Below are positions 8,450-33,830 of a stretch of 64,000 nucleotides of DNA, one piece after another (the first letter of the stretch is position 1; every line of letters begins with the position of its first letter). A program made the position numbers and the translations under genes. A model generated the notes under the pieces. It was not told the DNA's origin and did not search any database. It saw only the letters and a list, made by a program, of their open reading frames with translations. This stretch comes from Cyclobacteriaceae bacterium (GTDB lineage Bacteria; Bacteroidota; Bacteroidia; Cytophagales; Cyclobacteriaceae), in NCBI GenBank assembly GCA_016787645.1, contig JAEUUF010000019.1:62001-126000 (forward strand), given 5' to 3'.

Positions 8450-8474
8450 GACCCAAATATCAAGCCTTTTTCGT

Positions 8475-8482: not shown

Positions 8483-8498
8483 TTGAATCACCCACCCC

Positions 8499-9245: not shown

Positions 9246-9248
9246 TCC

Positions 9249-18485: not shown

Positions 18486-18565
18486 CGTTGAGCATTTAAC
18501 GCCTTCAAGGTAAGTAAATCTGAGAAGACACTCCTACCGTGGCTGCTCGTCGCTCTTGGGGAAGG

Positions 18566-19081
18566 CTAAGGTTCTTCCAGGATCCGACGGGCCACCCGAA
18601 AGCGCTTGACGTAATAATCGGAATAGAGATTCGTCTCCACGACACCCAGTGAAGTGGACGCATGAATGAATTTAATGTTATCCCGGGCTTTGACATCAGT
18701 GACAATGCCCACGTGTGTGATTTCACGTTTCTTCTTTCCGGTTGCAAAGAAGACAAGATCGCCTTCCTTAACATCCTTCATCTTCTTCACCTTCGTACCC
18801 AATTTTACTTGCTCCGTGGTTTGGCGGGGAAGCTTCACGTCAATAGACCGGTAGGCGGTTGACGTAAGCGCCGAACAATCCATACCCGACCTTGAAGTTC
18901 CTCCATACTTATATGGAGTTCCATAATAGGAACGGGCCGCCTGAATCACCGTGTTCACCTTCTTCTCATGCGCTTTGGCTTTCCGGGAAGTGCCGCACGC
19001 CGAAATAATCAGTGCGAAAAGCACCAGGAAAATGGCCGTGTTAAAAAACCGGTTTTGCGTACCTTTGCTCGCCAACCGCAT
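18566..19081 (-). CDS. NlpC/P60 lipoprotein peptidase
   Basis: 171 residues from the ATG at 19081, chosen because it opens a lipoprotein signal ending in LFALIISACGTS with the lipobox Cys; longer in-frame versions would overrun the divergent gene. The NlpC/P60 domain has the catalytic Cys in MDCSALTSTAY and His in ITHVGIVTDV, with a third polar residue in FIHASTS. Such enzymes cut gamma-D-Glu to diamino acid bonds in peptidoglycan stems. The lipid anchor places it in the envelope. Confidence 0.88.
   Translation of the reverse strand: MRLASKGTQNRFFNTAIFLVLFALIISACGTSRKAKAHEKKVNTVIQAARSYYGTPYKYGGTSRSGMDCSALTSTAYRSIDVKLPRQTTEQVKLGTKVKKMKDVKEGDLVFFATGKKKREITHVGIVTDVKARDNIKFIHASTSLGVVETNLYSDYYVKRFRVARRILEEP
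19060..19067 (+). promoter_or_regulatory. -7 promoter element for the GlcD-type gene
   Basis: TACCTTTG is an exact TAnnTTTG followed by C, lying inside the first codons of the divergent NlpC/P60 gene and 53 bases before the ATG at 19121. A TTG at -33 is not present, only TGTT. Confidence 0.4.
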
Positions 19082-19120
19082 GTACGTAAAGTTTAAAAAG
19101 TAAGTAAAAGTAGCGCATTC

Positions 19121-20551
19121 ATGGCAGAAACGAAAACGATGGAGGGCAGGCTCACCGGTGCGGTGATTGAACAGTTCAGGCAAATTGTTGGCGACGCCCA
19201 TATATTGCTCGACGCAGAACACAAGGAAGACTACGGTCACGACAAGACCGAAGACTACTTCTTTGCACCCGATGTCGTACTCAAACCAGGTACACCGCAA
19301 GAAATAAGCCAGATCCTGAAAATTTGCTCCGCCCACGAAATTCCAGTCACACCACGGGGAGCGGGTACTGGATTGAGCGGAGGGGCATTACCCGTCAAAA
19401 ACGGTGTGGTGCTGTCCATGGAGCGCTTCAACAAAATTCTGAACATCGATGAGCTCAACCTCCAGGCTACCGTGGAGCCGGGGGTGATCACCGAAGTATT
19501 TCAAAATGCGGTTAAAGAAAAGGGTCTCTTCTACCCGCCGGATCCAGCGAGTCGGGGCTCTTGTTTCCTGGGTGGTAATCTCGCCAACAACTCCGGGGGA
19601 CCGAAGGCAGTGAAATATGGTGTGACCCGCGATTATGTCCTCAACATGGAAGTGGTGTTGCCAACCGGAGAAATCATCTGGACCGCCGCTAACGTGCTGA
19701 AGAACTCTACCGGTTATAACCTCACACAACTAATGTGCGGCAGTGAAGGCACACTGGGTGTCATCACCAAGATTGTATTCAAGCTACGGGGCTACCCGCA
19801 GAAGAACGTGCTGATGATGATCCCCTTCGTTAGTAATGAAGAAGCCTGTGAAGCCATTGCCGCCATCTTCGTGGCAGGGATCCAGCCTTCGGGCATGGAG
19901 TTCTTTGAAAAAGAAGCCGCGGCCAAAACCTTTGAGTACTGTGAGAAAGTACTCAACAGCCCAGTCACCACAAAATTGGCGGATGGGATGAACGCGTATT
20001 TGTTGTGCGAGCTCGACGGCAACGACGAGGACGTATTGATGAAAGATGCCGAGCGGGTTATGGAAGTGCTTGAACGCTTCAATACCGGAGAGGCGCTATT
20101 CGCGGAAAGTTTTGCGCAGAAGGAAGAACTCTGGAAGATCCGCAAGAATATCTCTCCCGCGGTGAACTGGTATACACTCACAAAAAGTGACGATGTCGTC
20201 GTTCCGCGTGGCAACCTCCCCAAACTGATCAAGGGCATCAAGGAAATCGGGAAAGAATACGGTTTCAACACGGTGTGCTTCGGCCACCTGGGTGATGGCA
20301 ACCTTCACGTAAACATCCTCAAAGAAAATATCCCAGATGTTGACTGGGAGACCAAGATCCCGGAGGGCATCGGTGAGATCTTCAAATTGACTGTCTCGCT
20401 GGGCGGCACCCTTTCCGGCGAACATGGCATCGGCATCGCCAAGCGACCTTATATGTCGATCGCGATGGGCGAAGTGAATCTGAACCTCATGCGGGGGATC
20501 AAGAAAGTCTTTGATCCGAAGGGGATATTGAATCCTGGGAAGATATTCTAA
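19121..20551 (+). CDS. FAD-linked oxidase, GlcD/D-lactate dehydrogenase type
   Basis: A 476-residue FAD-binding oxidoreductase of the vanillyl-alcohol oxidase fold. The FAD-binding stretch is PRGAGTGLSGGALP, followed by GGNLANNSGGPKAVKYG. The C-terminal cap carries CFGHLGDGNLHVNI and SGEHGIGIAKRPYM. Family members oxidise glycolate, D-lactate or D-2-hydroxyglutarate. GlcE and GlcF partners are not adjacent, so D-lactate or a related 2-hydroxy acid is as likely as glycolate. Confidence 0.85.
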   Translation: MAETKTMEGRLTGAVIEQFRQIVGDAHILLDAEHKEDYGHDKTEDYFFAPDVVLKPGTPQEISQILKICSAHEIPVTPRGAGTGLSGGALPVKNGVVLSMERFNKILNIDELNLQATVEPGVITEVFQNAVKEKGLFYPPDPASRGSCFLGGNLANNSGGPKAVKYGVTRDYVLNMEVVLPTGEIIWTAANVLKNSTGYNLTQLMCGSEGTLGVITKIVFKLRGYPQKNVLMMIPFVSNEEACEAIAAIFVAGIQPSGMEFFEKEAAAKTFEYCEKVLNSPVTTKLADGMNAYLLCELDGNDEDVLMKDAERVMEVLERFNTGEALFAESFAQKEELWKIRKNISPAVNWYTLTKSDDVVVPRGNLPKLIKGIKEIGKEYGFNTVCFGHLGDGNLHVNILKENIPDVDWETKIPEGIGEIFKLTVSLGGTLSGEHGIGIAKRPYMSIAMGEVNLNLMRGIKKVFDPKGILNPGKIF

Positions 20552-20557
20552 AAAAAG

Positions 20558-20585
20558 AGAAGTTAGAAGGTAGGACGTAGAAGTT
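20558..20585. repeat. Degenerate 7-bp tandem repeat island
   Basis: Four heptamers, AGAAGTT, AGAAGGT, AGGACGT and AGAAGTT, begin seven bases after the preceding stop codon, in the gap before asnB. All begin AG and end in T. Confidence 0.65.
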
Positions 20586-20608
20586 GGCTGAATACCTATT
20601 TTTACCCC

Positions 20609-22507
20609 ATGTGTGGAATTACCGGTGTCTTCGCGTTCAACCTTGTTGGTAAATTCAGCAAGATTAATGTTGCCGCTGCCACCACTTCACTGGCCCATCG
20701 CGGTCCCGATTTCCATGACGTTTATGTGGATGAGTGGGTGTGCCTGGGTCACCGTAGGCTGAGTATCATCGACACCCGCGAAATTGCCCACCAGCCCATG
20801 TGGGACGAAAGCGGCCGGTGGTGCATCGTCTACAATGGCGAGATTTTCAATTACCGCGAGCTCAGGGCCACACTGGTCAATCTCGGTTATACCTTCCGCA
20901 CTGAATCGGACACGGAAGTATTGCTCAAGCTTTTCATCCGCGATGGCGCTTCCTGTTTGCATCAGCTCAACGGCTTCTTTGCCTTTTGCATCTACGACAA
21001 GCAGGAACAGTCTTTCTTCCTGGCGCGCGACCGCTTTGGCGTAAAGCCCCTATACTACTTGCACGACGACGACAAGTTTCTCTTTGGATCGGAACTTAAA
21101 GCCATCCACGCGTACGGCATCAACAAAAACCTCGACTACGACTCGCTCTATACCTATCTCCAGCTGAACTACATCCCCGCGCCAGATACGATTTTCAAGC
21201 ACGTAAAGAAGTTGTTGCCCGGGCATTGCCTGCGCGTGAAAGGTGGGCACCTGGCTCTTCAGTCGTACTATTCCATCCCTTATCAACCGGCAAATCTGAG
21301 TACCGCGTCTTACGAGAGCGCCCAAGGCTCGTTCCGCGATTTATTGGAGCAGGCCGTACAACGCCGACTGGTATCGGATGTTCCCCTGGGTGCCTTCCTG
21401 AGCGGCGGTATTGACTCTTCCGTGATTACCGCTCTCGCCAAAAGACACAAGCCCGATCTGCAAACCTTTTCTATTGGCTTTCGGGATGAGAAGTATTTTG
21501 ATGAGAGCCGCTATGCCGAAATCGCCGCGAAGCACCTGGGAACAAATCACACGGTTTTCTCCCTGACCAACACGGAGATGTCGGCTCACCTGCACGATAT
21601 TCTGAATAGTATCGATGAGCCGTTCGCCGATTCATCCGCTATCGCGGTGTACCTGCTTAGCCGTGAAACCCGGAAACACGCTACCGTCGCCCTTTCTGGG
21701 GATGGTGCAGATGAATTACTCGGTGGCTACAACAAGCATGCAGCCTTCTACCGTGCACTGCATCCGGGTTTCGCAGAAAAGGCGGTCACGGCGTTGAAGC
21801 CATTATGGTGGTTACTGCCCAAGTCAAGACATGCGCCATTCTCCAATACCGTACGTCAGCTCGACCGGTTTGCCCGCGGCGCTGGGCTTGCGTCTGCAGA
21901 ACGGTACTGGCTTTGGGCAGGATTCGCGACGCAGCGCCAGGCAGACCGACTGTTAAAGCCAGGGCTGAGAACAAATAGCGTTTTCATGTCGCGGCGTGAG
22001 GAGCTGTTGAACACGCTCCCCGTAAAGGAGACACTTAACGACGTCTTGTTAACCGATATGCGGTTGGTATTGCCCAACGATATGCTTACCAAGGTAGACC
22101 GAATGAGCATGGCGCATGCGGTTGAGATTCGGAACCCGTTTCTGGATGTCAACGTCGTCAACTTCCTGTTTACTCTCCCCGATCATTTCAAGATCGATGG
22201 CAGGACCCGGAAGAAACTCCTGCGGGATGCATTCCCTGGCCTGCTCCCCGCCGAACTTTACCAACGACCCAAGAAGGGATTCGAAGTGCCCCTCCTCAAA
22301 TGGATGCGGAAGGACCTCAAAAAGATAATCCGCGATGAACTGCTCTCCAGGCAATTCATCGAAGAGCAAGGAATTTTCAACTACGCTGAAATTCGAAGAC
22401 TGAGGAATCAGCTATTTGCCATTAATCCGGGCGACGTTCATGCCCGGATGTGGGGGCTGGTAGTGTTTCAATGGTGGTGGAGGGAAATGGTGAGAGGTAA
22501 ACGGTAA
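20609..22507 (+). CDS. asnB: Asparagine synthetase (glutamine-hydrolysing)
   Basis: 632 residues. It starts MCGITGVFAFN, where Cys2 becomes the N-terminal nucleophile of the glutaminase domain (about 1-210). The synthetase domain has the PP-loop FLSGGIDSSVITAL (around residue 265) and VALSGDGADELLGGYNKH. It converts aspartate, glutamine and ATP to asparagine. Bacteroidota carry several paralogues, some working on polysaccharide or peptide products, but there are no biosynthesis genes beside this one, so ordinary asparagine synthesis is likeliest. Confidence 0.93.
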   Translation: MCGITGVFAFNLVGKFSKINVAAATTSLAHRGPDFHDVYVDEWVCLGHRRLSIIDTREIAHQPMWDESGRWCIVYNGEIFNYRELRATLVNLGYTFRTESDTEVLLKLFIRDGASCLHQLNGFFAFCIYDKQEQSFFLARDRFGVKPLYYLHDDDKFLFGSELKAIHAYGINKNLDYDSLYTYLQLNYIPAPDTIFKHVKKLLPGHCLRVKGGHLALQSYYSIPYQPANLSTASYESAQGSFRDLLEQAVQRRLVSDVPLGAFLSGGIDSSVITALAKRHKPDLQTFSIGFRDEKYFDESRYAEIAAKHLGTNHTVFSLTNTEMSAHLHDILNSIDEPFADSSAIAVYLLSRETRKHATVALSGDGADELLGGYNKHAAFYRALHPGFAEKAVTALKPLWWLLPKSRHAPFSNTVRQLDRFARGAGLASAERYWLWAGFATQRQADRLLKPGLRTNSVFMSRREELLNTLPVKETLNDVLLTDMRLVLPNDMLTKVDRMSMAHAVEIRNPFLDVNVVNFLFTLPDHFKIDGRTRKKLLRDAFPGLLPAELYQRPKKGFEVPLLKWMRKDLKKIIRDELLSRQFIEEQGIFNYAEIRRLRNQLFAINPGDVHARMWGLVVFQWWWREMVRGKR

Positions 22508-22515
22508 GCGTTATT

Positions 22516-22547
22516 CGGCAATCAGGAGCACCCTGAATTCATTGCCG
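22516..22547. terminator. Hairpin between convergent asnB and outer-membrane gene
   Basis: CGGCAAT and ATTGCCG form a 7-bp stem around an 18-base loop, inside which CAGG and CCTG can pair. It lies in the 61-base gap between two convergent genes. There is no T-run, so termination is inferred. Confidence 0.35.
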
Positions 22548-22568
22548 TGCAAAAGCGCGTGGATGTGC

Positions 22569-23153
22569 TTACTTCCTAAAACGGAAGTGATAAGAGCCAA
22601 TAAGCTGGACCGAATAGCCATAGTCTTCGGTCTTGCCAAAGTTGACGAACTTCACCTCACCGCCAATGTCGAATCGGTCGTTGATTTTCTTCCGATACAA
22701 GGCTGATATGTGCAAGTTGGCCAGCGACAGAAAACTACTGTTGGCTTCACTGCCCAACACATTTACTTCGGAGAACATGATCGTGAGGCCTGGTCCGCCA
22801 CTGAGGTAAAAATCGGGCAACACCCGGATGCGAAAGGAAAGCAGGAGCGGCAAAGCCGTCAGTTTGGCTGAGCCACCCGCCCAGTTACCCGCGGGTTTAC
22901 TGTCTATGGAGTAGATGGTATAATATCCTGACTCCAGGCCCATGGACAAGCGGTGTTCAGGCTCCCACATGAACCGGAAAGTATACCCAACGTGATCCGT
23001 CACCGCCGCGTTCTTGACGCGTGGCATCTGGATGGTGTTGATATAATGAAACCAACCAAGGCCAGCACCCACCGACCAATTGTTTGGTTTTTCCTGCGAC
23101 TGCGCCGAGAGCGATCCGGCCATCAAAAACAATATCAGAATCGTTTTCCGCAT
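22569..23153 (-). CDS. Outer-membrane beta-barrel-like protein, cassette 1 gene B
   Basis: 194 residues with a signal peptide (MRKTILILFLMAGSLSAQSQ) and alternating beta-strand patterning through to a terminal aromatic residue (SYHFRFRK), as in small outer-membrane barrels. No characterised family is recognised. It is clearly related to the protein at 28457-29056: both have a Y-I-N segment near the start, then RFMWEPEHRLSMGLESGYYT against RLMWEPEYFLRLGFETGYNQ. It is the third gene of cassette 1, starting one base after the GDPD stop, and is presumably co-transcribed. Confidence 0.65.
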   Translation of the reverse strand: MRKTILILFLMAGSLSAQSQEKPNNWSVGAGLGWFHYINTIQMPRVKNAAVTDHVGYTFRFMWEPEHRLSMGLESGYYTIYSIDSKPAGNWAGGSAKLTALPLLLSFRIRVLPDFYLSGGPGLTIMFSEVNVLGSEANSSFLSLANLHISALYRKKINDRFDIGGEVKFVNFGKTEDYGYSVQLIGSYHFRFRK

Positions 23154-23154
23154 A

Positions 23155-24387
23155 CTATTCCCGGATATAATGATAGTAAGCGACATACGACGGGTAATTC
23201 GTCAGCAATCCATCAAAGCGCCCTTGATGAATATACTGGTTGATGTATGCCGGGACATCGATAGTCCAACACAACGCTTTGATGCCATCGGCCTGTACCG
23301 ATGCCACAAGGTCGTTCTGGGTACCTAAGGTCCAACGGGGTCCCCATGCCTTGGAGTTAAGCAACCGGGCCTCTTCCGGGCTAATCTCACACAAGGTTGG
23401 GATATTGGTGTAGTCGGGCATTGATTTCACGGCGGCAAGCACATCATCTGCCGGAACACCAATTAAAATATCGATCGTCCGGCCTTTGGAAGCCGCATAC
23501 TGGAGCATCTCCCGCTGAATTGGTATCGTATAGCTGACCACTTCGGGGTCTTTGGTGTCCAACCAGACAAACTCGAGTTGAGTGTTGTCTATGGCAAATT
23601 TGAGCGCTGCCCGAAGCGTGGGAATTTCCTCACCGCGGATAAGCTCTACAAAAGTGAGCAACTGGATATAAGTAAAGTTGGAAATTGGTCCGTTCAACGG
23701 ACCTTTCTGGGTCAACCGGATATTAATGTCATCATCGTGATAGAGTACCGGTATCTTGTCTTTAGTCAGCCGAACGTCAATTTCTACGCCATTGGCGCCA
23801 AAACGTTCAGCATACCCGATCATGGCGGTGCTATTCTCGGAAATCGGCAGACGGTCGCTCGTTCTCCCTCCGCCCCGATGTCCCACGATGAGAAATTTCT
23901 TCGAAGTGACCGTTGCTGAGAAAGTGCGCGAGAAAACAAATGAAATATTGGTGTTTGCTGGATTATTTTGCTGTCCATACCGGCCTCGAATGGTTAGGGA
24001 TGCAGGCATAATGCCTTTCAATAGACTGGACGCGCCTTCATTCTTGGCGATCACCAAATCGACCAATCCCATGTCGTCACTGGTAGGTACACGCCAATAA
24101 CCGCGCATAAACAGTATGGAATCCTTCGTGCCGGTTTCGAGGATCATGTACGCGGTACGGGTGAATATCGAAACGTATTTAGTTGACCACTTCACTACCG
24201 CATCATCGCCAAAGCGGCCACCAGTCGGTATCGTATAAACTCCTTCCATCAGCGGCTTGCTGATATCCGGCACCGCATCCAGTGCCGGCAAAGGCGGGAT
24301 AACCGGCACATCGACCGGGTAGTCGGTGGTGCACGTCATGCAAAAAGCAATCAGCAGCAATCCAATGGTTCGATAGGCGACTTTCAT
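23155..24387 (-). CDS. Glycerophosphodiester phosphodiesterase lipoprotein, cassette 1
   Basis: A 410-residue lipoprotein (signal ending IAFCMTCTTDY). The first 160 or so residues form an unrecognised domain with MEGVYTIPTGG and GYWRVP, shared with the protein at 29060-30331. The GDPD barrel follows: GHRGGGRTSD with the catalytic HRG, ENSTAM, VEIDVRLTKDKIPVLYHDDD, and a C-terminal DGLLTNYPSYVAYY. All catalytic residues appear intact. It should cleave glycerophosphodiesters or similar phosphodiesters in the periplasm or at the surface. Its ATG overlaps the stop of the upstream outer-membrane gene (ATGA). Confidence 0.85.
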   Translation of the reverse strand: MKVAYRTIGLLLIAFCMTCTTDYPVDVPVIPPLPALDAVPDISKPLMEGVYTIPTGGRFGDDAVVKWSTKYVSIFTRTAYMILETGTKDSILFMRGYWRVPTSDDMGLVDLVIAKNEGASSLLKGIMPASLTIRGRYGQQNNPANTNISFVFSRTFSATVTSKKFLIVGHRGGGRTSDRLPISENSTAMIGYAERFGANGVEIDVRLTKDKIPVLYHDDDINIRLTQKGPLNGPISNFTYIQLLTFVELIRGEEIPTLRAALKFAIDNTQLEFVWLDTKDPEVVSYTIPIQREMLQYAASKGRTIDILIGVPADDVLAAVKSMPDYTNIPTLCEISPEEARLLNSKAWGPRWTLGTQNDLVASVQADGIKALCWTIDVPAYINQYIHQGRFDGLLTNYPSYVAYYHYIRE

Positions 24388-25121
24388 AAGATCAGGCCGA
24401 TATAGAACTCAGGGATATTATAGTAGCGATTGAATGTCGAGAAGGCAGGCCACGCCATGAAGTGATATTTGGCGTAAGCATTCTTCAGGCCAAGGACAAG
24501 CACCTTGTTCTTGTGAATGCGTTGTTCCATGTACAGACCCAGCGTCCAGCCGTTTGAAAAATTCCTGTCCGAGGTGATTTCGTTTTCGCCTTGTTTCGAA
24601 CTGAAGTAGGTTACGACCACCACTTCGCCCTTGAGTGTAATGGCTACATCTTTAAACCTCCACCCCACCGAAGCATTGGGATAATTAATCCAGGAATGGG
24701 CACTGCTGGCAAATCCGAACTGGTTGAGATAGCCAAACGTGTAGGCTACATCATAGCCAACATTAAATGAAAGCTTTTTGTCCGCGGTCTGGTAATTCCA
24801 ACGCGGACCGAGGGAGATTTGGTTGGACACAAAGAGCGACGAAAAACGACCGTCCAAAGCAAAACCTTTGGGCAACCCATAATTGGCATGGAAATGAAAC
24901 AAGGGCGCCTGGATGGCCGTCTCCAGCCAGTCAAAGGGCAATTTTACCTGCGACAAGGCCAGCTCCATTCTGAACTCCTTGGGTTTGAACCGATGCGGGT
25001 AGTAGAGCGAGGAGGAGGCAATGTCAAAAGTGTCAGCCGCCTCCTGTCCGAATGCCTGAACGGGAATCAGTCCGGAGATAACAAGCAAGAAAAGTATCTT
25101 TGCGGGAGTCCTATTGAGCAT
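24384..25121 (-). CDS. Outer-membrane protein, cassette 1 gene A
   Basis: A 245-residue exported protein (signal MLNRTPAKILFLLVISGLIPVQAFGQ) with strand-like amphipathic repeats and a C-terminal PEFYIGLIL, suggesting a beta-barrel. It is related to the protein at 30341-31081: LPKGFALDGRFSSLFVSNQ against LPKGFNLQGGVSSLIISNR, and KYHFMAWPAF against RYHIIAWPAL. Function is unknown. It is the first gene of the cassette, with a promoter at 25150-25179, and overlaps the GDPD gene by four bases. Confidence 0.65.
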   Translation of the reverse strand: MLNRTPAKILFLLVISGLIPVQAFGQEAADTFDIASSSLYYPHRFKPKEFRMELALSQVKLPFDWLETAIQAPLFHFHANYGLPKGFALDGRFSSLFVSNQISLGPRWNYQTADKKLSFNVGYDVAYTFGYLNQFGFASSAHSWINYPNASVGWRFKDVAITLKGEVVVVTYFSSKQGENEITSDRNFSNGWTLGLYMEQRIHKNKVLVLGLKNAYAKYHFMAWPAFSTFNRYYNIPEFYIGLIL

Positions 25122-25149
25122 GATTATTGTTTCTCCTCATTCGGCGTAT

Positions 25150-25179
25150 CAAAGGTAATGCTTACACATCCGATGTCAT
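25150..25179 (-). promoter_or_regulatory. Promoter of OMP-GDPD cassette 1
   Basis: On the minus strand ATGACA is followed by TACCTTTG, an exact TAnnTTTG, with 19 bases between ATG and TA. The same arrangement (TTGACA, 19-base spacing, TACCTTTA) precedes cassette 2, so promoter and genes appear to have been duplicated together. It lies within the first codons of the divergent phosphoesterase gene. Confidence 0.55.
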
Positions 25180-26081
25180 ACCGGGTTGCCATTTTCTGCC
25201 TGTTCCTGGTGGCTGAAACAATCGTTTACGGGCAGTCGAAAGACATGATTTTTGTCAGTGATACCCAGGCGCCTATGTGGGTGGAGACGCTTTGGCTAAA
25301 GTCAAACCATAATCAGGAGGCCACCGGCTTTTTGTTTAGGGACATTGTGAAACAACATCCAGCATACCTGTTTATTCTCGGTGATGTGGTTACCCTTGGT
25401 TATAAGAAGAAGAAATGGTCAAGAATGGATCGTTACCTTGACAGTTGTCGACAAGCGGGAATTCGGGTGTCGGCCCTCCTGGGGAACCATGATGTCATGA
25501 CCCGGGCCCGCAAAGGTGAGTCATTATTTCAGCAGCGCTTCCCAGACCATCATCGAACGGGTTTCTACCAGGTCGTTGACTCTGTGGCTGTCCTATTTCT
25601 TAATTCCAATTTCAAGAAACTAGCCCCAGCTGACATCCAGCAACAACAAGAGTGGCTTTCCACCACGCTCACCGCTCTTGATGAAGATCCGTCTATTCTG
25701 ATTACGGTGGTTGCTTGCCACCATGCGCCCTATTCCAACAGTACCATTGTAGGTTCCTCGGAGCCTGTTCAGAAATACTTTGTGCCCAGTTATCTCCAAT
25801 CCAGGAAGGCTCGCTTATTCATTACCGGGCACTCACACAACTACGAGCTATTCCAGCGGGCTGGCAAGGACTTCCTCGTCATTGGCGGTGGCGGCGGTCT
25901 GCATCAGCCCCTCTCTGAAAAGCCAGACCGTCTTTTCGATTTATCCTCCGGCTATAAACCACAGTTCCACTACCTCGTGATGCAACGAAACGGTGGAACG
26001 CTTTGCTTGACCTCCCGGTACCTTTTGGAAGATTTTTCCGGATTCCAGGAAGGTTTGTCATTTTCCATACACTATCGCTGA
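25158..26081 (+). CDS. Exported calcineurin-like metallophosphoesterase
   Basis: 307 residues from the ATG at 25158; the ATG at 25173 (MSYRVAIFCLFLVAETIVYG) gives the cleaner signal peptide and is equally possible. All metallophosphatase motifs are present: FVSDTQ, LGDVVTLG, LLGNHDV, VACHHAPY and FITGHSHNYE. The substrate is unknown; a phosphomonoester or phosphodiester is expected. Its place directly beside two exported phosphodiesterase cassettes suggests linked phosphate-ester breakdown, where GDPD would release glycerol-3-phosphate and a monoesterase act next. That link is inference. Confidence 0.85.
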   Translation: MLTHPMSYRVAIFCLFLVAETIVYGQSKDMIFVSDTQAPMWVETLWLKSNHNQEATGFLFRDIVKQHPAYLFILGDVVTLGYKKKKWSRMDRYLDSCRQAGIRVSALLGNHDVMTRARKGESLFQQRFPDHHRTGFYQVVDSVAVLFLNSNFKKLAPADIQQQQEWLSTTLTALDEDPSILITVVACHHAPYSNSTIVGSSEPVQKYFVPSYLQSRKARLFITGHSHNYELFQRAGKDFLVIGGGGGLHQPLSEKPDRLFDLSSGYKPQFHYLVMQRNGGTLCLTSRYLLEDFSGFQEGLSFSIHYR

Positions 26082-26082
26082 T

Positions 26083-26709
26083 ATGCGTTTCACGCTCTTC
26101 CTGTTACTCTTTCCTTTGGTCGCTTTTGCTCAATCGGAATGCTCCCTTGAACTGGACAAAGACAGTATCCAGGTGTATACCTGCCCCCGGGCGGACTCCC
26201 GGTTCAAAACCGTCAAGTCAAGGTTCACCGTAAACAGCAAGCTAACCGAACTTGCTGCCGCCATCCTGGACATTGAAAACTATGGCACCTGGCAGTACAA
26301 GACGGTCAGCGCGCGCGTTTTGAAACAAGTCAGCGAACGTGAGCTGGTCTACTACACCCGTGTGGAGGCACCCGTACTTACGCAAGACCGCGACTTCATC
26401 ATTCGGCTTACGGTAGATCCCGATCCCATGACCCAAGGCATGATCGTCGAGGCAGTCAGCTTGCCCGATTACCTGCCGGGCGTACCCGACGTAGTGCGGG
26501 TGCCCTTTTCGCGTGCCCGTTGGAATATACAGCCCCTGTCACCTGGCAAGCTATCGGTTGAATATGTCATTGACATTGATCTCGGAGGTGCGGTGCCTCC
26601 GTGGATTGTTAACCTTGTCGCCCCCAAAGCGCCTTACGAGACATTCAGCGCGCTAAGAAGGATCATGGTGAACTATCGTGGCAAGAACGTAGGATTCATC
26701 GGGAAGTAA
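26083..26709 (+). CDS. Exported START-like (SRPBCC) domain protein
   Basis: 208 residues with a signal peptide (MRFTLFLLLFPLVAFAQ) and one START/SRPBCC-like lipid-binding fold: IENYGTWQYKTVSARVLK, YTRVEAPVLTQDRDFIIRL and LSVEYVIDIDLGGAVPPWIVN. Bacterial homologues bind hydrophobic ligands, but no ligand is known here. It begins one base after the phosphoesterase stop, so the two are co-transcribed, pointing to a lipid-related substrate for the pair. It is convergent with glnS. Confidence 0.75.
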   Translation: MRFTLFLLLFPLVAFAQSECSLELDKDSIQVYTCPRADSRFKTVKSRFTVNSKLTELAAAILDIENYGTWQYKTVSARVLKQVSERELVYYTRVEAPVLTQDRDFIIRLTVDPDPMTQGMIVEAVSLPDYLPGVPDVVRVPFSRARWNIQPLSPGKLSVEYVIDIDLGGAVPPWIVNLVAPKAPYETFSALRRIMVNYRGKNVGFIGK

Positions 26710-26712
26710 CCC

Positions 26713-28374
26713 TTACCCCTTCTTTGCTTCCTTTGCCCACATGTCCCGCAACGTGACCGTCTGGTTGAAAATCAACTTATCCGGTTTTGAATCCGGGTCG
26801 AGGCAATAGTAGCCCATGCGCAAGAACTGGAATCGCTCGTCGGGTGCTGCTTTGCCCAGTTCCGGTTCAGCATAAACCCGTTTGATCACCAGCGATTGCG
26901 GGTTGAGGTGATCACGAAAATCTCCTTCGAGCGTACCGAGGTCCTCAACGGTAAACAGCCGGTCGTAAATTCTGACCTCTGCCGGAACGGCATGGTTCGC
27001 ACTTACCCAATGGAGCGTACCTTTCACTTGGATCCCCGACGTATCGGAGCCACTCTTGCTCTCCGGAATGTAGGAACAACGAACTTCCAGTATAGTTCCA
27101 TCGGACCCCTTCACGACCTCCTCGCATTTGATGATGTAAGCACTCTTCAATCTGACCATTTGTCCGGGGGCCAAGCGAAAGTACTTCTTCGGCGGGTTCT
27201 CCATGAAATCGTCCTTCTCGATGTATAATTCACGGCTGAAAGGCATCTCGCGGTAGGTGACGCCTTCTTCGCCCGGGGTGTTCTCACTGCGCAACATTTC
27301 TGACTTGCCTTCCGGGTAGTTGATCAAGACAATTTTCAAAGGATCAAACACCACCATGCGCCGCAAGGAGACTTTGTTGAGGTGCTCCCTGACACAGAAT
27401 TCAAGCAGGCTGATATCGATAAGGTTGTCTCGCTTGGCCACACCCACACGGTCACAAAAGTCACGAATGCTTTCAGGGGTATACCCGCGGCGGCGCACAC
27501 CACTGAGCGTAGGCATCCGGGGATCATCCCAACCGCTCACATGCCCTTCATTGACGAGCTGCAGCAGTTTCCGCTTGCTCATCAGCGTGTGTGTCATGTT
27601 GAGGCGTGCAAATTCATATTGCCGCGATGGAAAGATCTCCAGTTTTTCGATAAACCAGTTGTAAAGCTCGCGGTGAGGAACAAATTCCAGCGTGCAGATG
27701 CTGTGCGTCACTTGCTCAATGGAATCACTTTGACCGTGGGCGAAGTCATACATCGGGTAGATACACCAGGTGTCGCCTGTACGGTGGTGATGGGCATGTT
27801 TGATGCGATAGAGAATCGGGTCACGCATGTGCATGTTGGTATGTGCCATGTCAACTTTCGCACGCAATACCCGCTCGCCATCCTTGAACTTCCCGGCCTT
27901 CATCTGTTCGAACAGGGTAAGGTTCTCCTCCACGGACCTGTTTCGATACGGGGAGTCTTTTCCCGGGCTGGTAGGTGTTCCTTTGCTGGCAGCAATTTCC
28001 TCGCTGGTACTGTCGTCGACGTAGGCCAACCCTTTCCTGATCAATTTCAGGGCAAATTCATACAGTTGAGGGAAGTAGTCAGACGCGTACAGCTCATTCG
28101 CCCAGGAGAAACCCAGCCAGGCCACATCATTCTTGATATTGTCAACGTATTCAGTTTCTTCGGTTACCGGGTTTGTGTCATCGAACCGAAGGTTGGTTTT
28201 TCCGCCATATTTCAAGGCCAGCCCGAAATTGAGGCAGATGCTCTTGGCATGACCCAAGTGAAGATAACCGTTGGGTTCAGGCGGGAAGCGCGTGGTAATA
28301 CTGGTGTAGCGGCCTGCTTTCAGGTCATTCTCAACGATCTCCTCCAGGAAGTTCAGGCTCTTTTCCTCTGTCAT
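26713..28374 (-). CDS. glnS: Glutaminyl-tRNA synthetase
   Basis: 553 residues, the usual GlnRS size. The class I signature is FPPEPNGYLHLGHAKSICLN (the HIGH motif) and the KMSKS counterpart is TLMSKRKLLQLV. The C-terminal anticodon-binding beta-barrels are complete. It charges tRNA-Gln directly, so the GatCAB route is not essential for Gln in this organism. It separates the two OMP-GDPD cassettes. TAAAGATA (28393-28400) may be a weak -7 element. Confidence 0.96.
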   Translation of the reverse strand: MTEEKSLNFLEEIVENDLKAGRYTSITTRFPPEPNGYLHLGHAKSICLNFGLALKYGGKTNLRFDDTNPVTEETEYVDNIKNDVAWLGFSWANELYASDYFPQLYEFALKLIRKGLAYVDDSTSEEIAASKGTPTSPGKDSPYRNRSVEENLTLFEQMKAGKFKDGERVLRAKVDMAHTNMHMRDPILYRIKHAHHHRTGDTWCIYPMYDFAHGQSDSIEQVTHSICTLEFVPHRELYNWFIEKLEIFPSRQYEFARLNMTHTLMSKRKLLQLVNEGHVSGWDDPRMPTLSGVRRRGYTPESIRDFCDRVGVAKRDNLIDISLLEFCVREHLNKVSLRRMVVFDPLKIVLINYPEGKSEMLRSENTPGEEGVTYREMPFSRELYIEKDDFMENPPKKYFRLAPGQMVRLKSAYIIKCEEVVKGSDGTILEVRCSYIPESKSGSDTSGIQVKGTLHWVSANHAVPAEVRIYDRLFTVEDLGTLEGDFRDHLNPQSLVIKRVYAEPELGKAAPDERFQFLRMGYYCLDPDSKPDKLIFNQTVTLRDMWAKEAKKG

Positions 28375-28456
28375 GGCTTGCTTAAAAAGTCGTAAAGATA
28401 GGAACCGTTAGCTCTCAGGGAAACAGCCACAAACGAGGTTGTCGCACGCCGAGTCC

Positions 28457-29056
28457 TTACCAAAGGCGATAGCCCGCCATGAAGACCAGTGCCAGGTTCT
28501 TGTCTTCAAGCTTTCCGGAGTAATACCCCCTGAATTCAGCTCCGAGAGTGAAGCGCTCACTGATATCCTTACGATAGCCAATGGTAGCCGTGAAGTCTCC
28601 CAGGGACAAAACAGAAGCGTCATAGTTGCCCAGCTTGCCCGTTGATACGTTGTTCATCAGGAAAGCTTGTCCCATGCCGAAATTCCAATAGTAGTGCTTC
28701 AGGAATTGCATGGAAACAACAAACTGGATGGGAATTGACGCGTTGACTATGCTCACATCTCCCGTAGCCGGATGCGTTCCGGACATTCGATAAAGCTGAT
28801 TGTACCCCGTCTCAAAGCCCAGGCGCAAAAAATATTCGGGCTCCCACATGAGTCGGGCCACAAAAGAATAGTTGACCGGCTTAACCTTGTCCGCAGCTAC
28901 TTCGAGGTTATTGATGTAATAGTTCGGGCCAATCCCACCATACACGATCCATCGATGTTTCTTCCCGGAAGCGGCAGTCGCTTCGGTTTGAGCACACGCC
29001 GAGGTGATCGATAACCCGAAGATGAGCACACCCAAAAAGAAGTTTATTCTCGACAT
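28457..29056 (-). CDS. Outer-membrane beta-barrel-like protein, cassette 2 gene B
   Basis: 199 residues with a signal peptide (MSRINFFLGVLIFGLSITSACAQ) and beta-barrel-like patterning ending in VFMAGYRLW. A paralogue of the protein at 22569-23153, same position in its cassette and about the same length. Unknown function. It starts three bases after the cassette 2 GDPD stop. Confidence 0.65.
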   Translation of the reverse strand: MSRINFFLGVLIFGLSITSACAQTEATAASGKKHRWIVYGGIGPNYYINNLEVAADKVKPVNYSFVARLMWEPEYFLRLGFETGYNQLYRMSGTHPATGDVSIVNASIPIQFVVSMQFLKHYYWNFGMGQAFLMNNVSTGKLGNYDASVLSLGDFTATIGYRKDISERFTLGAEFRGYYSGKLEDKNLALVFMAGYRLW

Positions 29057-29059
29057 AGC

Positions 29060-30331
29060 TCAGAACATCGTGTAGTAGTTATAAACCACATAGGCCGGAT
29101 AATCGGTGATAAAACCATCGAACTGGCCATTCTTCAGGTAATTCTTGATCAGACCTTCTGCATTCAGCGTCCAGCTGATCACCTTCAGTCCATTATCGTG
29201 TGCCCGCTGCACATCAGGCAAAAGCAAGCCCATCGTATAGCGCGGACCAAAGAACTGGCAGTTATTGGCCAACGCTTTGTCAATTGACTCCTCAGCCAGT
29301 GTGGGAAGCGGCAGCGTGTAATTGGGATCGGCCGGATTACCTGCCTGGTAGGTGGGCACCTTTTTGAGTTCGTCGATCACTTCGGAAGAAGGAAGCCCGG
29401 CGAAAATGACCACATCCCGATTCTTGTCCAGGGCTCTCTTGTAGGCCCTCCGAACTACGGGTTCCAGGTACTTGAATACATCCACATTACCCTTGATGTC
29501 CATCCAGAAGTATTTCATGGTAGTGGAGTCAATGAACGCGGTCAGCGCTTGCTCCACGGAGGGCACACGCTGGCCGTCAATCAATTCAACATACTGGGAA
29601 ATGAATGCAAAACTGTATTGATCCCAGTAGCCGAACAATGGGCCCTTCTTGGTTAGCCGGGTGTTGATGGTTGGATCATGCACCAGGATGGGAACGTTAT
29701 CCTTGGTCATGCGGACATCCAACTCCAAGCCGGTAATTCCGTAATCTTCCGCATTGAGAATCATATTGATGGAATTCTCTGCATAAGGAGGATCTACCGT
29801 AGTTTGAATTCCGTGGTGAGCAAAAACCATGAAAGGATTGTTTGTCGCAAAAGCGGTGAATGGCCGCTCATATTGAATGGTAATGGGATTTCCAGACGTT
29901 ACCTCCTTGAGTTTCAGGCTGGATACCAGTCCATTCAGCAAGTCTGCAACTCCATCGGCTGAGGAAATGGCAAACTGGATGTTAGCCTGGGCAGGGCTTT
30001 CCGTATACCGCCAGAAGCCGGAGAATTGAATTGACCCGTCAGATGCTTTGTATCCATATTTTAACAAGAGCTGCATTCCACTGGCATTGCTGAAGAAAGA
30101 AACCTTATTCCTGGAAACTTTGCAGACAAAGGTTGTACCGAGGTACTCACTTCCCGAGGCCAGCGTGTAAACGCCTTCCATGGCTTTGATGGTCGTATTA
30201 CCCACAAACGGAATGGCGGTAGTGCCTACCAGGTTACTATCGTTACCTGCGGGAGGGGGAGTAATCTCACTTTGAGAGCAACTCAAGAAGAAAAAGGAAA
30301 GAGCTATTATGATTCCAGGGAGTAACTTCAT
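29060..30331 (-). CDS. GDPD-family lipoprotein with altered HRG motif, cassette 2
   Basis: 423 residues with a lipoprotein signal (ALSFFFLSCSQSE). It has the same two-part layout as the cassette 1 protein: an unrecognised N-terminal domain (MEGVYTLASGSEY, GFWRYTESP), then a GDPD barrel with ENSINM, LELDVRMTKDNVPILVHDPT and a C-terminal DGFITDYPAYVVY. The usual HRG is HHG (VFAHHGIQ), so the conserved Arg that contacts phosphate is a His, while the metal-binding Glu and Asp and the second His remain. Activity may be altered, shifted in substrate or lost. Confidence 0.82.
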   Translation of the reverse strand: MKLLPGIIIALSFFFLSCSQSEITPPPAGNDSNLVGTTAIPFVGNTTIKAMEGVYTLASGSEYLGTTFVCKVSRNKVSFFSNASGMQLLLKYGYKASDGSIQFSGFWRYTESPAQANIQFAISSADGVADLLNGLVSSLKLKEVTSGNPITIQYERPFTAFATNNPFMVFAHHGIQTTVDPPYAENSINMILNAEDYGITGLELDVRMTKDNVPILVHDPTINTRLTKKGPLFGYWDQYSFAFISQYVELIDGQRVPSVEQALTAFIDSTTMKYFWMDIKGNVDVFKYLEPVVRRAYKRALDKNRDVVIFAGLPSSEVIDELKKVPTYQAGNPADPNYTLPLPTLAEESIDKALANNCQFFGPRYTMGLLLPDVQRAHDNGLKVISWTLNAEGLIKNYLKNGQFDGFITDYPAYVVYNYYTMF

Positions 30332-30340
30332 GATGACTCG

Positions 30341-31081
30341 TTAGAAATTCCAGCCCACTTGAAACTCGGGCATGACATAGCGGTATTTACTGGCCGGAAG
30401 CGCGGGCCAGGCGATGATGTGGTATCGAAGGTAATTCAGCTTGAATCCAATGGACATCACCCGCTTTTTGGTCAACCGCTGTTCAAAGCTTGTGGTTATG
30501 GAGTAACCGTTGATAAAGGACTCCTTGGATGAGACCGTATTTCCCCCTTCACTGACGCTGATGTCGAGCGTATTGTAAAGGTCCGCCCGGATGGTAAGGG
30601 CTGTTTTTCCGAAATTGTACCCAGCCGCTAATGAAGGTTGTGTTTCCCAACCCGTCAAGATCGTGTTGAACCCAAACTGCTTGAGGACACCAAAATTAAA
30701 CGCTACCTGGTACCCCACACCCACGCTGAATCGCCCGCTGGAATAATTCCAGAACGGACCCGCGTTGAACCGGTTGGAAATAATCAATGACGACACACCG
30801 CCCTGCAGGTTAAATCCTTTGGGCAGGGTATACTTTCCCGTGTAATTAAACATGGGCGCCACGACAGCATCGAGGGTCCAGTCCTTGGGTGGAACCACAT
30901 AAAGCAGATAGATGGCGTGTGAATATTTGCCAGAGGGCAACGGCTGTGGAAGCAAAAAGCTGCGGTCCTTGATGTCAAACCGGGTGGTATCCGTGTCCTG
31001 GGCCTGTAAGGAAAGAAACCGGCCACTCAATAATATTAAGCACAACAGGATTCGGAGCTTGGAGAAACAAATTACCTTCAT
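30341..31081 (-). CDS. Outer-membrane protein, cassette 2 gene A
   Basis: A 246-residue exported protein, a paralogue of that at 24384-25121, with strand-rich sequence and a C-terminal MPEFQVGWNF. The signal peptide spans about residues 1-27 (LRILLCLILLSGRFLSLQAQ). It heads cassette 2 and is followed nine bases later by the GDPD gene. Function unknown; a surface barrel that hands substrate to the lipoprotein is one possibility. Confidence 0.65.
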   Translation of the reverse strand: MKVICFSKLRILLCLILLSGRFLSLQAQDTDTTRFDIKDRSFLLPQPLPSGKYSHAIYLLYVVPPKDWTLDAVVAPMFNYTGKYTLPKGFNLQGGVSSLIISNRFNAGPFWNYSSGRFSVGVGYQVAFNFGVLKQFGFNTILTGWETQPSLAAGYNFGKTALTIRADLYNTLDISVSEGGNTVSSKESFINGYSITTSFEQRLTKKRVMSIGFKLNYLRYHIIAWPALPASKYRYVMPEFQVGWNF

Positions 31082-31103
31082 GCTGGGAACTTTTCGGAAA
31101 GAT

Positions 31104-31133
31104 TAAAGGTATGGAATGAGGCCGGATTGTCAA
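31104..31133 (-). promoter_or_regulatory. Promoter of OMP-GDPD cassette 2
   Basis: On the minus strand TTGACA is followed by TACCTTTA with exactly 19 bases between TTG and TA, fitting the Bacteroidota sigma consensus at both boxes. It ends 23 bases before the ATG at 31081. Confidence 0.6.
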
Positions 31134-31168
31134 GTTTCGACCAACGAGTATTCAATAAACAAGTATCC

Positions 31169-31387
31169 ATGAGTAGCGTAAAAGAAACCTTCCAGGTAAA
31201 TGGGATGACCTGCAGTGGTTGTGTCAATACGGTGAAGAGATTATTGTCCAATGTGAAGGGGGTCCAGGATGCCCAGGTCTCGCTTACCACGAAGACGGCT
31301 GAGGTCACCCGAGACGAAAGCGTGAGTATTGATGCACTGAAGATCGCATTGCGGGGATTTCCATACGAGATCGTAGAGCGTCACTAG
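31169..31387 (+). CDS. Heavy-metal-associated (HMA) domain metallochaperone
   Basis: A 72-residue single HMA domain. GMTCSGCVNTVKRLL carries the metal-binding Cys15-x2-Cys18. Length and fold match CopZ/Atx1-type copper chaperones. No P-type ATPase or other metal gene is adjacent, so the partner is encoded elsewhere. The ATG at 31169 is used because it gives the standard domain start. A perfect 10-bp palindrome (GACTTAAGTC) follows the stop at about 31390. Confidence 0.88.
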   Translation: MSSVKETFQVNGMTCSGCVNTVKRLLSNVKGVQDAQVSLTTKTAEVTRDESVSIDALKIALRGFPYEIVERH

Positions 31388-31420
31388 TTGACTTAAGTCG
31401 GGCGATCAGGGATTTCTTAA

Positions 31421-32182
31421 TCACTTCCCGTAGATCTGGTTCAATAGTCCCGCCAGGCGAACCCCCGCCTGCAGCATGCGCTGTTTGGCGATGGGGAAGT
31501 ACTTGAAGGAATATTGATAACCCAGCGCACCGTTTCCGATGTCATACACTTGCGGGCGATAGGTGATTGACTCTTGCGCCCATTCGCGTACGCTCGCGGC
31601 CTGCCATTTTTTTATGGTCTGCTTATCCGGCTTGCCCAATGCGCCGGCCAGTTCGGTGTAGCTGAGTTTAGTATCGTCGATCATCTCGCTGTCCCACACC
31701 CGATGAAGGTTGGACTCATTACGAAACCATTTCACTTTCACTTCATTGCCACCCCGGTCACCGGGTTTGCCCACATGCAAGGGTTGGTGAATATCTCCCA
31801 CGAGATGAATCAACATCTTTAAGGTCTCTTCCTCCTGCTTCTTGCTCAGCTTCCTGCTTTTCAAGTCCTTCATAAACTTCTCGATCATTTCCACCACCTT
31901 TCCGTCAGGGTTAGAAGCAATATCCTCATAACGTTTCCCGTCGGGTATAGTGGTATAATGCCAGGTATCCGCATAGCGATAGGTTGAATCCGACCTGATT
32001 TCGTCCATCCAGGTGCTCGCCATAGCCAGTGATTCCTGCCCCAGGACGACTGCAATTTTCTTCCGGGCCTTTGCAGTAAGGTACTGATCCGCGACCAGGC
32101 CCGTGGCACGGTGCCCTGTCGCCCCCCAGCCAAAACTTTCAAGGCTCACGAAACAGGCGACCGCAATAATTATCCCTCTCAT
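31421..32182 (-). CDS. S1/P1-type nuclease
   Basis: A 253-residue secreted zinc nuclease. Predicted signal cleavage leaves Trp19 as the mature N-terminus (WGATGHRATG), which in P1 nuclease supplies its amino group and carbonyl to zinc. Other ligands are in IHLVGDIHQPLHVG and the later NLHRVWDSEMID. It degrades single-stranded DNA or RNA, or 3'-nucleotides, outside the cytoplasm, probably for phosphate or nucleoside scavenging. It is convergent with the HMA gene. Confidence 0.88.
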   Translation of the reverse strand: MRGIIIAVACFVSLESFGWGATGHRATGLVADQYLTAKARKKIAVVLGQESLAMASTWMDEIRSDSTYRYADTWHYTTIPDGKRYEDIASNPDGKVVEMIEKFMKDLKSRKLSKKQEEETLKMLIHLVGDIHQPLHVGKPGDRGGNEVKVKWFRNESNLHRVWDSEMIDDTKLSYTELAGALGKPDKQTIKKWQAASVREWAQESITYRPQVYDIGNGALGYQYSFKYFPIAKQRMLQAGVRLAGLLNQIYGK

Positions 32183-32242
32183 AGGTCAGTTAATTGAGCC
32201 GCAAAATAGCGGTTTCCGGTTTATAGTGGTTGAATTCCCGAC

Positions 32243-32250
32243 TATCTTTG
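32243..32250 (+). promoter_or_regulatory. -7 promoter element of the amidoligase operon
   Basis: TATCTTTG is an exact TAnnTTTG; 19 bases upstream is TTA, a partial -33 match. It lies 62 bases before the GTG start at 32313 and would drive the four-gene operon to 36517. Confidence 0.45.
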
Positions 32251-32312
32251 ACTCCTCGACCTGAGGGAAACAAATACACCATTGAGAACAACCCCGGCCT
32301 TGCCGGCACCCT

Positions 32313-33086
32313 GTGAAACTTTCCGCTATTCGCATTGCCAACCAACTTGACTTGAAAGGACTCAAGTCTTCCCTGGATATCAAGGCCCTGGCAGATTCTT
32401 CCTCGGAATTGTTCTATCAACTGGCGCCCGACAAGTATCAATATTATTTCAACTACGGGATCGTCGTGTTTTCGGGTCACAGCGACGAGGAAATCAAACA
32501 GACCGTTACGAAAATTCATGGCTTTCTGAAAAGTCCCAACGGCTGGTTGCGCGACGATCATGAGATTGTTGTCCGGGAAGGCACATCCCTGGAATTTCTT
32601 TTTGACCAGGTCATCGTTGATCACATTGACGAAAAAGTGGTCCGCATTGTCATGCTGAACCTGGCCCAGTCGGTGGCCCTCGACCACTACCATCATACTT
32701 CCGAAAACCTGCTCACGGAGATCCGGGGGTTCACCAATCACCTCGAGGCAACCGGAAAACTGAGCATCAACCGCAAGAACATGATGAAGTTTATTGGGAG
32801 AGCCCTCAATACTCAGAATGACATTGCGGACAACATCTATATCTTCGATGCGCCGGATATGGTGTGGGACAATGAATACCTCGACAACCTCCACAAAGGA
32901 CTCATGAAACACTACGACCTCCGTGTGCGGTTCAGCGAGGTGGAGTACACCTTACGCATCATTGAAGACAACCTGCGGGTATTCCGTGAGATTACTGCCC
33001 AACGGGAAAGCAGTTTGTTGGAATGGATTATTATTCTCCTGATTCTCGTGGAAGTGGTCAACCTTTTCCTCTCCAAAATATTCTGA
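32313..33086 (+). CDS. RMD1/DUF155 family membrane protein
   Basis: 257 residues from a GTG start (MKLSAIRIANQLDLKGLKSS). The core YYFNYGIVVFSGH, a long helical region with SVALDHYHH, and a C-terminal membrane segment (WIIILLILVEVVNLFLSKIF) match the RMD1/YagE (DUF155) family, whose yeast and human members sit in mitochondria and are needed for translation or meiosis by an unknown mechanism. The bacterial role is not known. It ends three bases before the C39-like peptidase gene, the first gene of a tight four-gene set. Confidence 0.8.
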   Translation: MKLSAIRIANQLDLKGLKSSLDIKALADSSSELFYQLAPDKYQYYFNYGIVVFSGHSDEEIKQTVTKIHGFLKSPNGWLRDDHEIVVREGTSLEFLFDQVIVDHIDEKVVRIVMLNLAQSVALDHYHHTSENLLTEIRGFTNHLEATGKLSINRKNMMKFIGRALNTQNDIADNIYIFDAPDMVWDNEYLDNLHKGLMKHYDLRVRFSEVEYTLRIIEDNLRVFREITAQRESSLLEWIIILLILVEVVNLFLSKIF

Positions 33087-33089
33087 GGC

Positions 33090-33803
33090 ATGTCACAGCA
33101 GAAGGCGCTCTTCCTTGACTTCGATATAAAGGCCCAGCCGGATGAGGTGACTTGCGGCCCCACCTGCCTCCACGCACTTTACAGTTATTACAATGATCCC
33201 ATATCCCTCAAACAAGTCATCAAGGAAGTAAAACAATTGAAGAACGGGGGCACCCTGGCCGTGATGATGGGGAACCACGCATTGAAGAGAGGGTACCAGG
33301 CAACCATTTACACCTATAACCTTAATGTGATGGACCCCACCTGGGCTACCCTTTCCACCCGAAAGATCATTGAAAACCTCAGGCGTCAAATGCGGTACAA
33401 AGCTCACCGGCGGAAACTTGTGGTGGCCAGCAAAGCCTATATCAACTTCTTACAAGCTGGCGGCAAGTTGCTCAATGCTGAATTGGATGAAGGATTGATC
33501 AAAGGCTATCTCAAACGATCAGTCCCCATTATCGCTGGCCTTAGTGCGACCTACCTTTATGGCACCCCACGCGAAATACCCAGCACCAACAAATACGACA
33601 GTATCCGCGGTGAGCCGGTGGGGCATTTTGCCATTATTAATGGGTATGAAAGTGAGCGCGGGATGGCCTTCCTGGCCGATCCAATGAATCCAAACCCACT
33701 AAAATCCCAGTATTATAACGTGACCTTCGATCGGCTGCTGAACAGCATTATGCTGGGAATTGTCACCTATGACGCTAACTTGCTTATCATCCAGCCGAAG
33801 TAA
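33090..33803 (+). CDS. C39-like cysteine peptidase
   Basis: 237 residues. The papain-like catalytic Cys is in EVTCGPTCLHALYSYY, and the His and Asp are in GHFAIINGYE and FLADPMNPN, as in C39 peptidases. There is no signal peptide or ABC transporter domain, so it is a free cytoplasmic enzyme rather than a bacteriocin-processing exporter. Located between DUF155 and two ATP-dependent ligases, it may hydrolyse or transfer the peptide bonds they make. The link to RimK and GCS2 ligases recurs in comparative-genomics descriptions of amidoligase operons, from memory and not checked here. Confidence 0.8.
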   Translation: MSQQKALFLDFDIKAQPDEVTCGPTCLHALYSYYNDPISLKQVIKEVKQLKNGGTLAVMMGNHALKRGYQATIYTYNLNVMDPTWATLSTRKIIENLRRQMRYKAHRRKLVVASKAYINFLQAGGKLLNAELDEGLIKGYLKRSVPIIAGLSATYLYGTPREIPSTNKYDSIRGEPVGHFAIINGYESERGMAFLADPMNPNPLKSQYYNVTFDRLLNSIMLGIVTYDANLLIIQPK

Positions 33804-33830
33804 CCCTTCCCTATCCGGTTATTCCCCCGC

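Follow-up and report, generated by a model that had tools for sequence, protein, structure and literature searches.

Two A–GDPD–B cassettes in a Cyclobacteriaceae genome

The window analysed here is a 64,000-nucleotide stretch of the forward strand of contig JAEUUF010000019.1 (positions 62,001 to 126,000) from a Cyclobacteriaceae bacterium (assembly GCA_016787645.1). It carries two three-gene cassettes on the minus strand, each encoding a predicted outer-membrane barrel (A), a lipoprotein with a glycerophosphodiester phosphodiesterase domain (GDPD; protein G) and a second, small barrel (B), and between them lie genes for a metallophosphoesterase (MPE) and a START-domain protein (Table 1). All six cassette open reading frames (ORFs) were confirmed, and both triplets are as tightly packed as a preliminary description of this DNA had it: A1 and G1 overlap by 4 bases (ATGA) and G1 is separated from B1 by a single base, with corresponding gaps of 9 (A2–G2) and 3 bases (G2–B2) in cassette 2.

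The one-to-one pairing of the triplets also holds. The blastp comparisons aligned A1 with A2 at 36% identity (E 2e-49), G1 with G2 at 34% (E 1e-71) and B1 with B2 at 30% (E 6e-20), and all three pair alignments were significantly similar, scoring 33 to 105 standard deviations over 300 shuffles, whereas the four A-versus-B pairs stayed near chance at 0 to 2. At the DNA level, the cassettes are barely alignable (best blastn E 0.08), indicating that the copies diverged anciently. Searched with the G1 protein and with the A and B profiles, the genome that contains the window shows just these two cassettes in each case. Among the six cassette proteins, Pfam names only the GDPD domain in G1 and G2 and OMP_b-brl in B1.

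Table 1. Features of the two cassettes and their surroundings (positions within the window)
Feature	Position	Strand	Basis
A1, cassette 1 barrel (outer membrane, unnamed family); first gene	24384..25121	-	
G1, cassette 1 lipoprotein; N-terminal domain specific to the cassette (~19-160), GDPD domain at the C-terminus (170-399)	23155..24387	-	PF03009 70 bits (cutoff 23.6)
B1, small outer-membrane barrel	22569..23153	-	PF13505 31.5 bits (cutoff 28.7)
A2, cassette 2 barrel	30341..31081	-	ORF; 36% to A1; Chitinophagaceae/Sphingobacteriaceae clade
G2, cassette 2 lipoprotein GDPD, HR motif changed to HH	29060..30331	-	PF03009 68.1 bits (cutoff 23.6); residue 171; tree
B2, cassette 2 barrel, without a Pfam match of its own	28457..29056	-	30% to B1; tree
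Cassette 1 upstream region with promoter-like box TACCTTTG, overlapping the start of the MPE frame	25122..25178	-	sequence; consensus (PMC6847099)
Cassette 2 upstream region with box TACCTTTA	31082..31120	-	sequence
MPE, metallophosphoesterase, divergent from cassette 1	25155..26081	+	PF00149 42.6 bits versus 21.5
START-domain protein after MPE	26083..26709	+	PF01852 31.9 bits versus 22
Cassette 2 interval, missing in the syntenic relative L006	28375..31126		tblastn synteny; flank comparison

Distribution and conserved gene order

The cassette is a real module: comparison across genomes shows that the genes for A, the two-domain GDPD lipoprotein and B are kept together as a single conserved operon-like unit, of which the MPE is a frequent fourth partner. 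The neighbourhood search in other Bacteroidota that the preliminary description had proposed recovered the order A–GDPD–B on one strand in 53 of 54 complete loci, comprising the two window cassettes, all nine complete loci from named genomes, all 38 loci of the series L061-L098 and four of five further loci; these counts omit one place in family f11 (genome G446). The A and GDPD genes overlap by 4 bases in 29 of 49 loci, with starts picked by script. No description of the cassette appeared among the matches listed in searches of open-licence PMC papers.

The 11 loci from named genomes were retrieved with two short peptide patterns, and Cyclobacteriaceae, Ferruginibacter and other Chitinophagaceae, and Mucilaginibacter are among their hosts. 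Protein A is sparsely distributed: a two-row profile recovered it in 2 of 148 genomes of the window's own family, the window's genome included. A 13-row profile recovered it in 21 genomes when 391 of the order were searched and in 22 when 395 of the phylum were, and a 49-row profile raised the phylum figure to 24, spread over 20 of 170 genera. The order sample is dominated by family f11, which means that the rows are not independent. A separate search with the N-terminal domain of G returned the same 24 of 395 genomes, an agreement that is partly by construction; free of this bias, the N-domain search gave no genome lacking A, and each search contributed the same two new genomes, G190 and G642. 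At 28 of the 29 N-domain places, A is part of the same cassette.

The exception among these places, L118:6872-8251, is the second N-domain GDPD of genome G535; it has no adjoining A or B, and by eye an N-terminal membrane segment replaces the lipobox, making it an orphan form. The sole cassette seen with the order A–B–GDPD (L122:3027-5568) lies in genome G870, which has three cassettes; G600 has two. At L075:3-2712, a GDPD–B pair with an MPE (its A outside the retrieved stretch) is followed about 5 kb on by a full cassette at 7590-10313, a parallel to the window. L015 retains the usual order with its GDPD in two ORFs (L015:6663-7916, Mucilaginibacter sp.), reflecting either a broken gene or a sequencing error, and L008 ends with its contig inside the GDPD gene. 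Accordingly, the 49-row A and G alignments used below omit L008 and L015, along with L004 (the same locus as L061), and the 49-row B alignment omits L008 and L076, which has a short B ORF.

A metallophosphoesterase as frequent fourth partner

Neighbour clustering over 45 loci (the four shorter than 9 kb, L007, L008, L012 and L016, being left out) identified the MPE as the one widely recurrent neighbour family. Of 49 loci, 32 have it no more than 400 bp from the cassette; family f11 accounts for 16 of these (out of 17 loci) and the other lineages for the remaining 16 (out of 32). Its placement varies: downstream on the same strand in 18, upstream divergent in five, upstream on the same strand in five and downstream convergent in four. 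Among the loci without a nearby MPE are some close to a contig end and some whose neighbours are unrelated.

A strong MPE homologue, defined as E up to 1e-75 with a cut chosen after the gap to the next best match (6e-17) had been seen, and using a profile built from cassette-side genes, is present in 15 of 24 cassette genomes and in none of 25 cassette-free ones (Fisher p 8e-7). Of the 16 strong places, 13 lie within 1 kb of a cassette. The 25 cassette-free genomes, among those listed, are all of the window's class or nearer, and 19 of the 24 cassette genomes come from other classes; within the window's class, the comparison stands at 5 of 5 cassette genomes against 0 of 25 (p 7e-6). Weak matches at E up to 1e-10 occur in three cassette-free genomes. 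The phosphoesterase that the preliminary description suspected as a helper is thus supported as a recurrent partner of the cassette. Purple acid phosphatases match the MPE profile across part of the domain (E 3e-7 to 1xzw); the MPE proteins are shorter, and their first motif is D-x-Q where that of purple acid phosphatases is D-x-G. The window's MPE was translated from a GTG at 25155, and its true start is perhaps a few codons later. By eye, the MPE proteins of L093 and L094 look like lipoproteins. In L062, a long near-perfect inverted repeat (10522-10671) separates B from the MPE gene.

The START-domain protein, which the preliminary description had cast as a second, lipid-binding helper, was rejected as a general partner: it clusters beside the cassette only in the window and in three of the 45 loci (L006, L009 and L061), all near relatives. 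The larger neighbour clusters other than MPE reflect lineage synteny in the same 45 loci. Twenty neighbours scanned in loci without MPE were mixed and included no SusC or SusD, with 47 neighbour ORFs of at least 600 aa left unscanned.

The GDPD lipoprotein

In the 49-row alignment, H170, N185, E202, D204, H217, D218, D277, K279 and W374 are invariant, such that both catalytic histidines (H170 and H217) and the E.D metal pair (E202 and D204) are kept in every row, cassette 2 included. The HR motif is less uniform. R171 is present in 42 rows, cassette 1 among them, and absent from exactly seven, which together make up the cassette-2 clade; cassette 2 itself has His at this position and the six others His or Gly. 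E184 is lost in three Sphingobacteriaceae rows of the same clade. The third metal ligand of GDPDs is the Glu of an E-x-K motif; the corresponding position is Asp277 in all 49 rows and Glu in the aligned PDB relatives 9f49 and 3no3. The changed HR motif of cassette 2 suggests a different substrate or rate.

The family thus shares with GlpQ/UgpQ-type GDPDs (PF03009) the domain itself, the catalytic His, the E.D metal pair and a WT motif, and differs from them in the Asp that stands for the third metal-binding Glu, in the missing HR arginine of cassette 2, and in its extra N-terminal domain, lipoprotein anchor and barrel partners. The N-terminal domain has no Pfam family; a weak THAP4/nitrobindin-like hint (best E 0.0011, in 2 of 34 rows) is unconfirmed, Rv0813 matching at E 2. 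The NCBIfam model for lysophosphatidylglycerol phospholipase D matches both GDPDs weakly (E 2.5e-5 and 6e-6), far under its curated cutoff, and the generic GDPD model PRK09454 matches G1 and G2 equally well or nearly so.

A lipobox cysteine in all 49 G rows bears out the description of the GDPD as a lipoprotein. Its placement in a surface system fared less well. The surface lipoprotein export signal is given as C-x-K-(D/E)2 in excerpts of the source (PMC5080379); defined in other classes than the window's, it occurs in none of the 49 G lipoproteins, and a D/E pair starting at +2 to +4 is found in four. This weakly favours the periplasmic face of the outer membrane.

The barrel proteins A and B

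The claim that neither barrel belongs to a recognised family holds for A. A1 and A2 have no Pfam or NCBIfam family, and across 49 rows the best Pfam match to any family was E 0.031, from one row against OMP_b-brl. Protein A is predicted to be a 10-stranded outer-membrane barrel, a fold it would have in common with OpcA and the omptins. Identity to these proteins is 8-12%, and no PDB sequence matched A below E 1. Every one of the 49 rows has acidic residues at positions 166 and 199, and 47 have a basic residue at 213; all three positions lie on the predicted lumen side, so that the interior of A appears to carry conserved opposite charges; unlike in omptin/OpcA, these polar positions look like a charge network without an invariant Ser/His/Asp set. 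Protein B is supported as a general OMP barrel type, OMP_b-brl (PF13505) being matched by B1, not by B2 and, at E up to 0.1, by 23 of 49 rows.

Origin of the second cassette

The two cassettes differ in their affinities. In trees of G, A and B, inferred with a quick method and SH-aLRT support only, cassette 1 groups with Cyclobacteriaceae, and cassette 2 with relatives in Ferruginibacter and Mucilaginibacter (Chitinophagaceae/Sphingobacteriaceae) at SH-aLRT 95 to 100. The cassette-2 clade has a long stem branch in the G tree, at 1.34 changes per column. By tblastn, locus L006 is syntenic with the window from the gene at 18566 to the gene at 33803; it has cassette 1, at 67-75% identity to the window, and lacks cassette 2, its GlnRS gene and the counterpart of the small gene at 31127-31387 lying about 120 bp apart. 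L009 and L061 were unusable for this comparison, because the sequence flanking the far side of cassette 2 could not be located in either.

A local duplication was therefore rejected: three trees split the copies by clade, and the one informative syntenic relative has no copy at this place. The cassette is present twice, as first described, and the inference of a duplication falls. Given the clade placement and the absence from L006, cassette 2 was most likely acquired whole and placed near the resident cassette; its loss in L006 is a less simple alternative. No terminal repeats were found around cassette 2, and a plasmid search with G2 returned 11 records with GDPD-like matches, none covering 80%.

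The preliminary description had also held that the promoter was duplicated with the genes. The strings do exist, as ATG-N19-TACCTTTG before cassette 1 and TTG-N19-TACCTTTA before cassette 2. However, both boxes resemble the general Bacteroidota -33/-7 promoter, which excerpts of PMC6847099 give as TTTG / TANNTTTG, later revised to TAHHTTTG. Because of this resemblance, and because TAHHTTTG occurs 19 times in the window on both strands, the boxes are no evidence of a duplicated promoter, and a special promoter duplicated with the cassette was rejected.

Comparison with known systems and proposed function

The closest functional kin of the cassette are the Pus (phosphate utilisation system) loci of Flavobacterium, in which, according to excerpts of PMC8115612, SusCD-like complexes are encoded with phosphatases and phosphodiesterases. 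Common to both are Bacteroidota outer-membrane proteins and a lipoprotein encoded with phosphoesterases, and a plausible role in organic phosphorus. In contrast to the Pus loci, the window's cassettes have small barrels in place of a SusC/TonB-dependent transporter or SusD, and their lipoprotein is itself the enzyme; no SusC-like transporter lies beside them, there being no ORF longer than 632 aa among those overlapping 18000-36000.

From GDPD chemistry and the adjoining phosphatase, we infer that the module probably handles glycerol-phosphate compounds at the outer membrane. Our preferred, tentative reading, which we place slightly short of an even call, is that the cassette is an outer-membrane-anchored phosphodiester-processing unit for glycerophosphodiesters or lysophospholipids, with the MPE dephosphorylating the product. 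A and B would together make a platform in the membrane that holds the lipoprotein and perhaps feeds it. The GDPD domain of the lipoprotein, which probably lies on the periplasmic side, would split glycerophosphodiesters or lysophospholipids, yielding an alcohol plus sn-glycerol-3-phosphate (or lysophosphatidate), and the MPE would then release inorganic phosphate and glycerol. The phosphorus and glycerol of phospholipid debris or headgroups might thereby be salvaged, with cassette 2 serving as a second, divergent version acquired near the first. The earlier interpretation is as a whole partly supported; the uptake or holding by A and B of a phosphodiester that the lipoprotein would cleave is a hypothetical part of it.

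A bolder form of the same idea, which we consider rather unlikely, would make A, the GDPD lipoprotein and B an undescribed outer-membrane enzyme complex. In it, the barrel pair would present outer-leaflet or imported glycerophospholipids to the tethered diesterase and the phosphomonoester would pass to the MPE, amounting to TonB-independent lipid-phosphorus salvage across Bacteroidota, with cassettes of different specificity brought near each other by horizontal transfer.

Several observations weigh against the phosphodiester-processing reading. Half of the loci outside family f11 (16 of 32) have no MPE inside 400 bp, and 9 of the 24 cassette genomes have no strong MPE. In f11 itself, the MPE starts without a signal peptide (in all four loci checked, L062, L065, L068 and L072, and in 6 of 6 aligned rows), so that, without import of the product, it would be unable to act after a periplasmic GDPD. 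The f11 lipoproteins carry a CRK(D/E)YE motif resembling the export signal, for which the test is weak in this class. GDPD activity is not assured, considering the Glu-to-Asp change throughout the family and the HR arginine gone from the cassette-2 clade. The barrel fold of A is predicted from 13 sequences. Finally, the A and N-domain profiles derive from cassette loci, and 22 of the 24 genomes they found were already known, a construction that favours finding cassettes.

Membrane housekeeping is a different, unlikely but serious, possibility: the unit might clear lysophospholipids or misplaced glycerophospholipids from the outer membrane in the manner of a lysophospholipase D, with the MPE and, in Cyclobacteriaceae, the START protein handling the lipid product. 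To our knowledge, the lysophosphatidylglycerol phospholipase D of Staphylococcus aureus has no barrel partners. That enzyme is a GDPD-type protein acting on an envelope lipid, resembles the cassette GDPDs by a weak sequence match only, and maintains membrane homeostasis according to excerpts of PMC10404611. Such a role would suit the outer-membrane tethering, the two barrel genes, the START gene adjoining the cassette in the window and in three loci of near relatives, and the sub-cutoff NCBIfam match of both GDPDs. However, the generic GDPD model performs as well or nearly so, and a distribution as patchy as this one (24 of 395 phylum genomes and 2 of 148 from the window's own family) would be odd for a housekeeping function.

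Two further explanations seem improbable to us. The GDPD could strip glycerol-phosphate decorations from a surface glycan, the barrels being export or holding parts of an envelope polymer or capsule enzyme; the best PDB relatives do include GDPD domains that end very large proteins (9euf and 9eul, known by name), indicating that the fold works beyond small diesters, but no glycan genes recur beside the cassette in the 45-locus clustering or the 20 scanned neighbours, and the 49 lipoproteins lack the surface-export signal. More doubtful still, the GDPD domain, above all that of cassette 2, might be catalytically dead or nearly so and contribute binding or sensing to an envelope complex. Loss of the HR motif in all seven aligned members of the cassette-2 clade, of E184 in three, and the long stem branch of that clade would fit, yet none of the 49 rows, cassette 2 included, departs from the two catalytic histidines, the E.D metal pair or the D.K pair.

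Under the phosphodiester-processing reading, the module ties two families without names, one of outer-membrane barrels and one a lipoprotein domain, to putative phosphodiester hydrolysis and a phosphatase across distant Bacteroidota. If true, this would be a route to phosphorus, or to membrane-lipid policing, that operates without TonB-dependent transporters, and it offers a testable function for two protein families without a Pfam name.

Genes beyond cassette 2

The small gene at 31127-31387, directly beyond cassette 2, encodes what we take to be a protein resembling the heavy-metal-associated domain and is conserved in L006, which has no cassette 2. Further out, an S1/P1 nuclease gene (PF02265) at 31421-32182 is likewise kept in L006 without the cassette.

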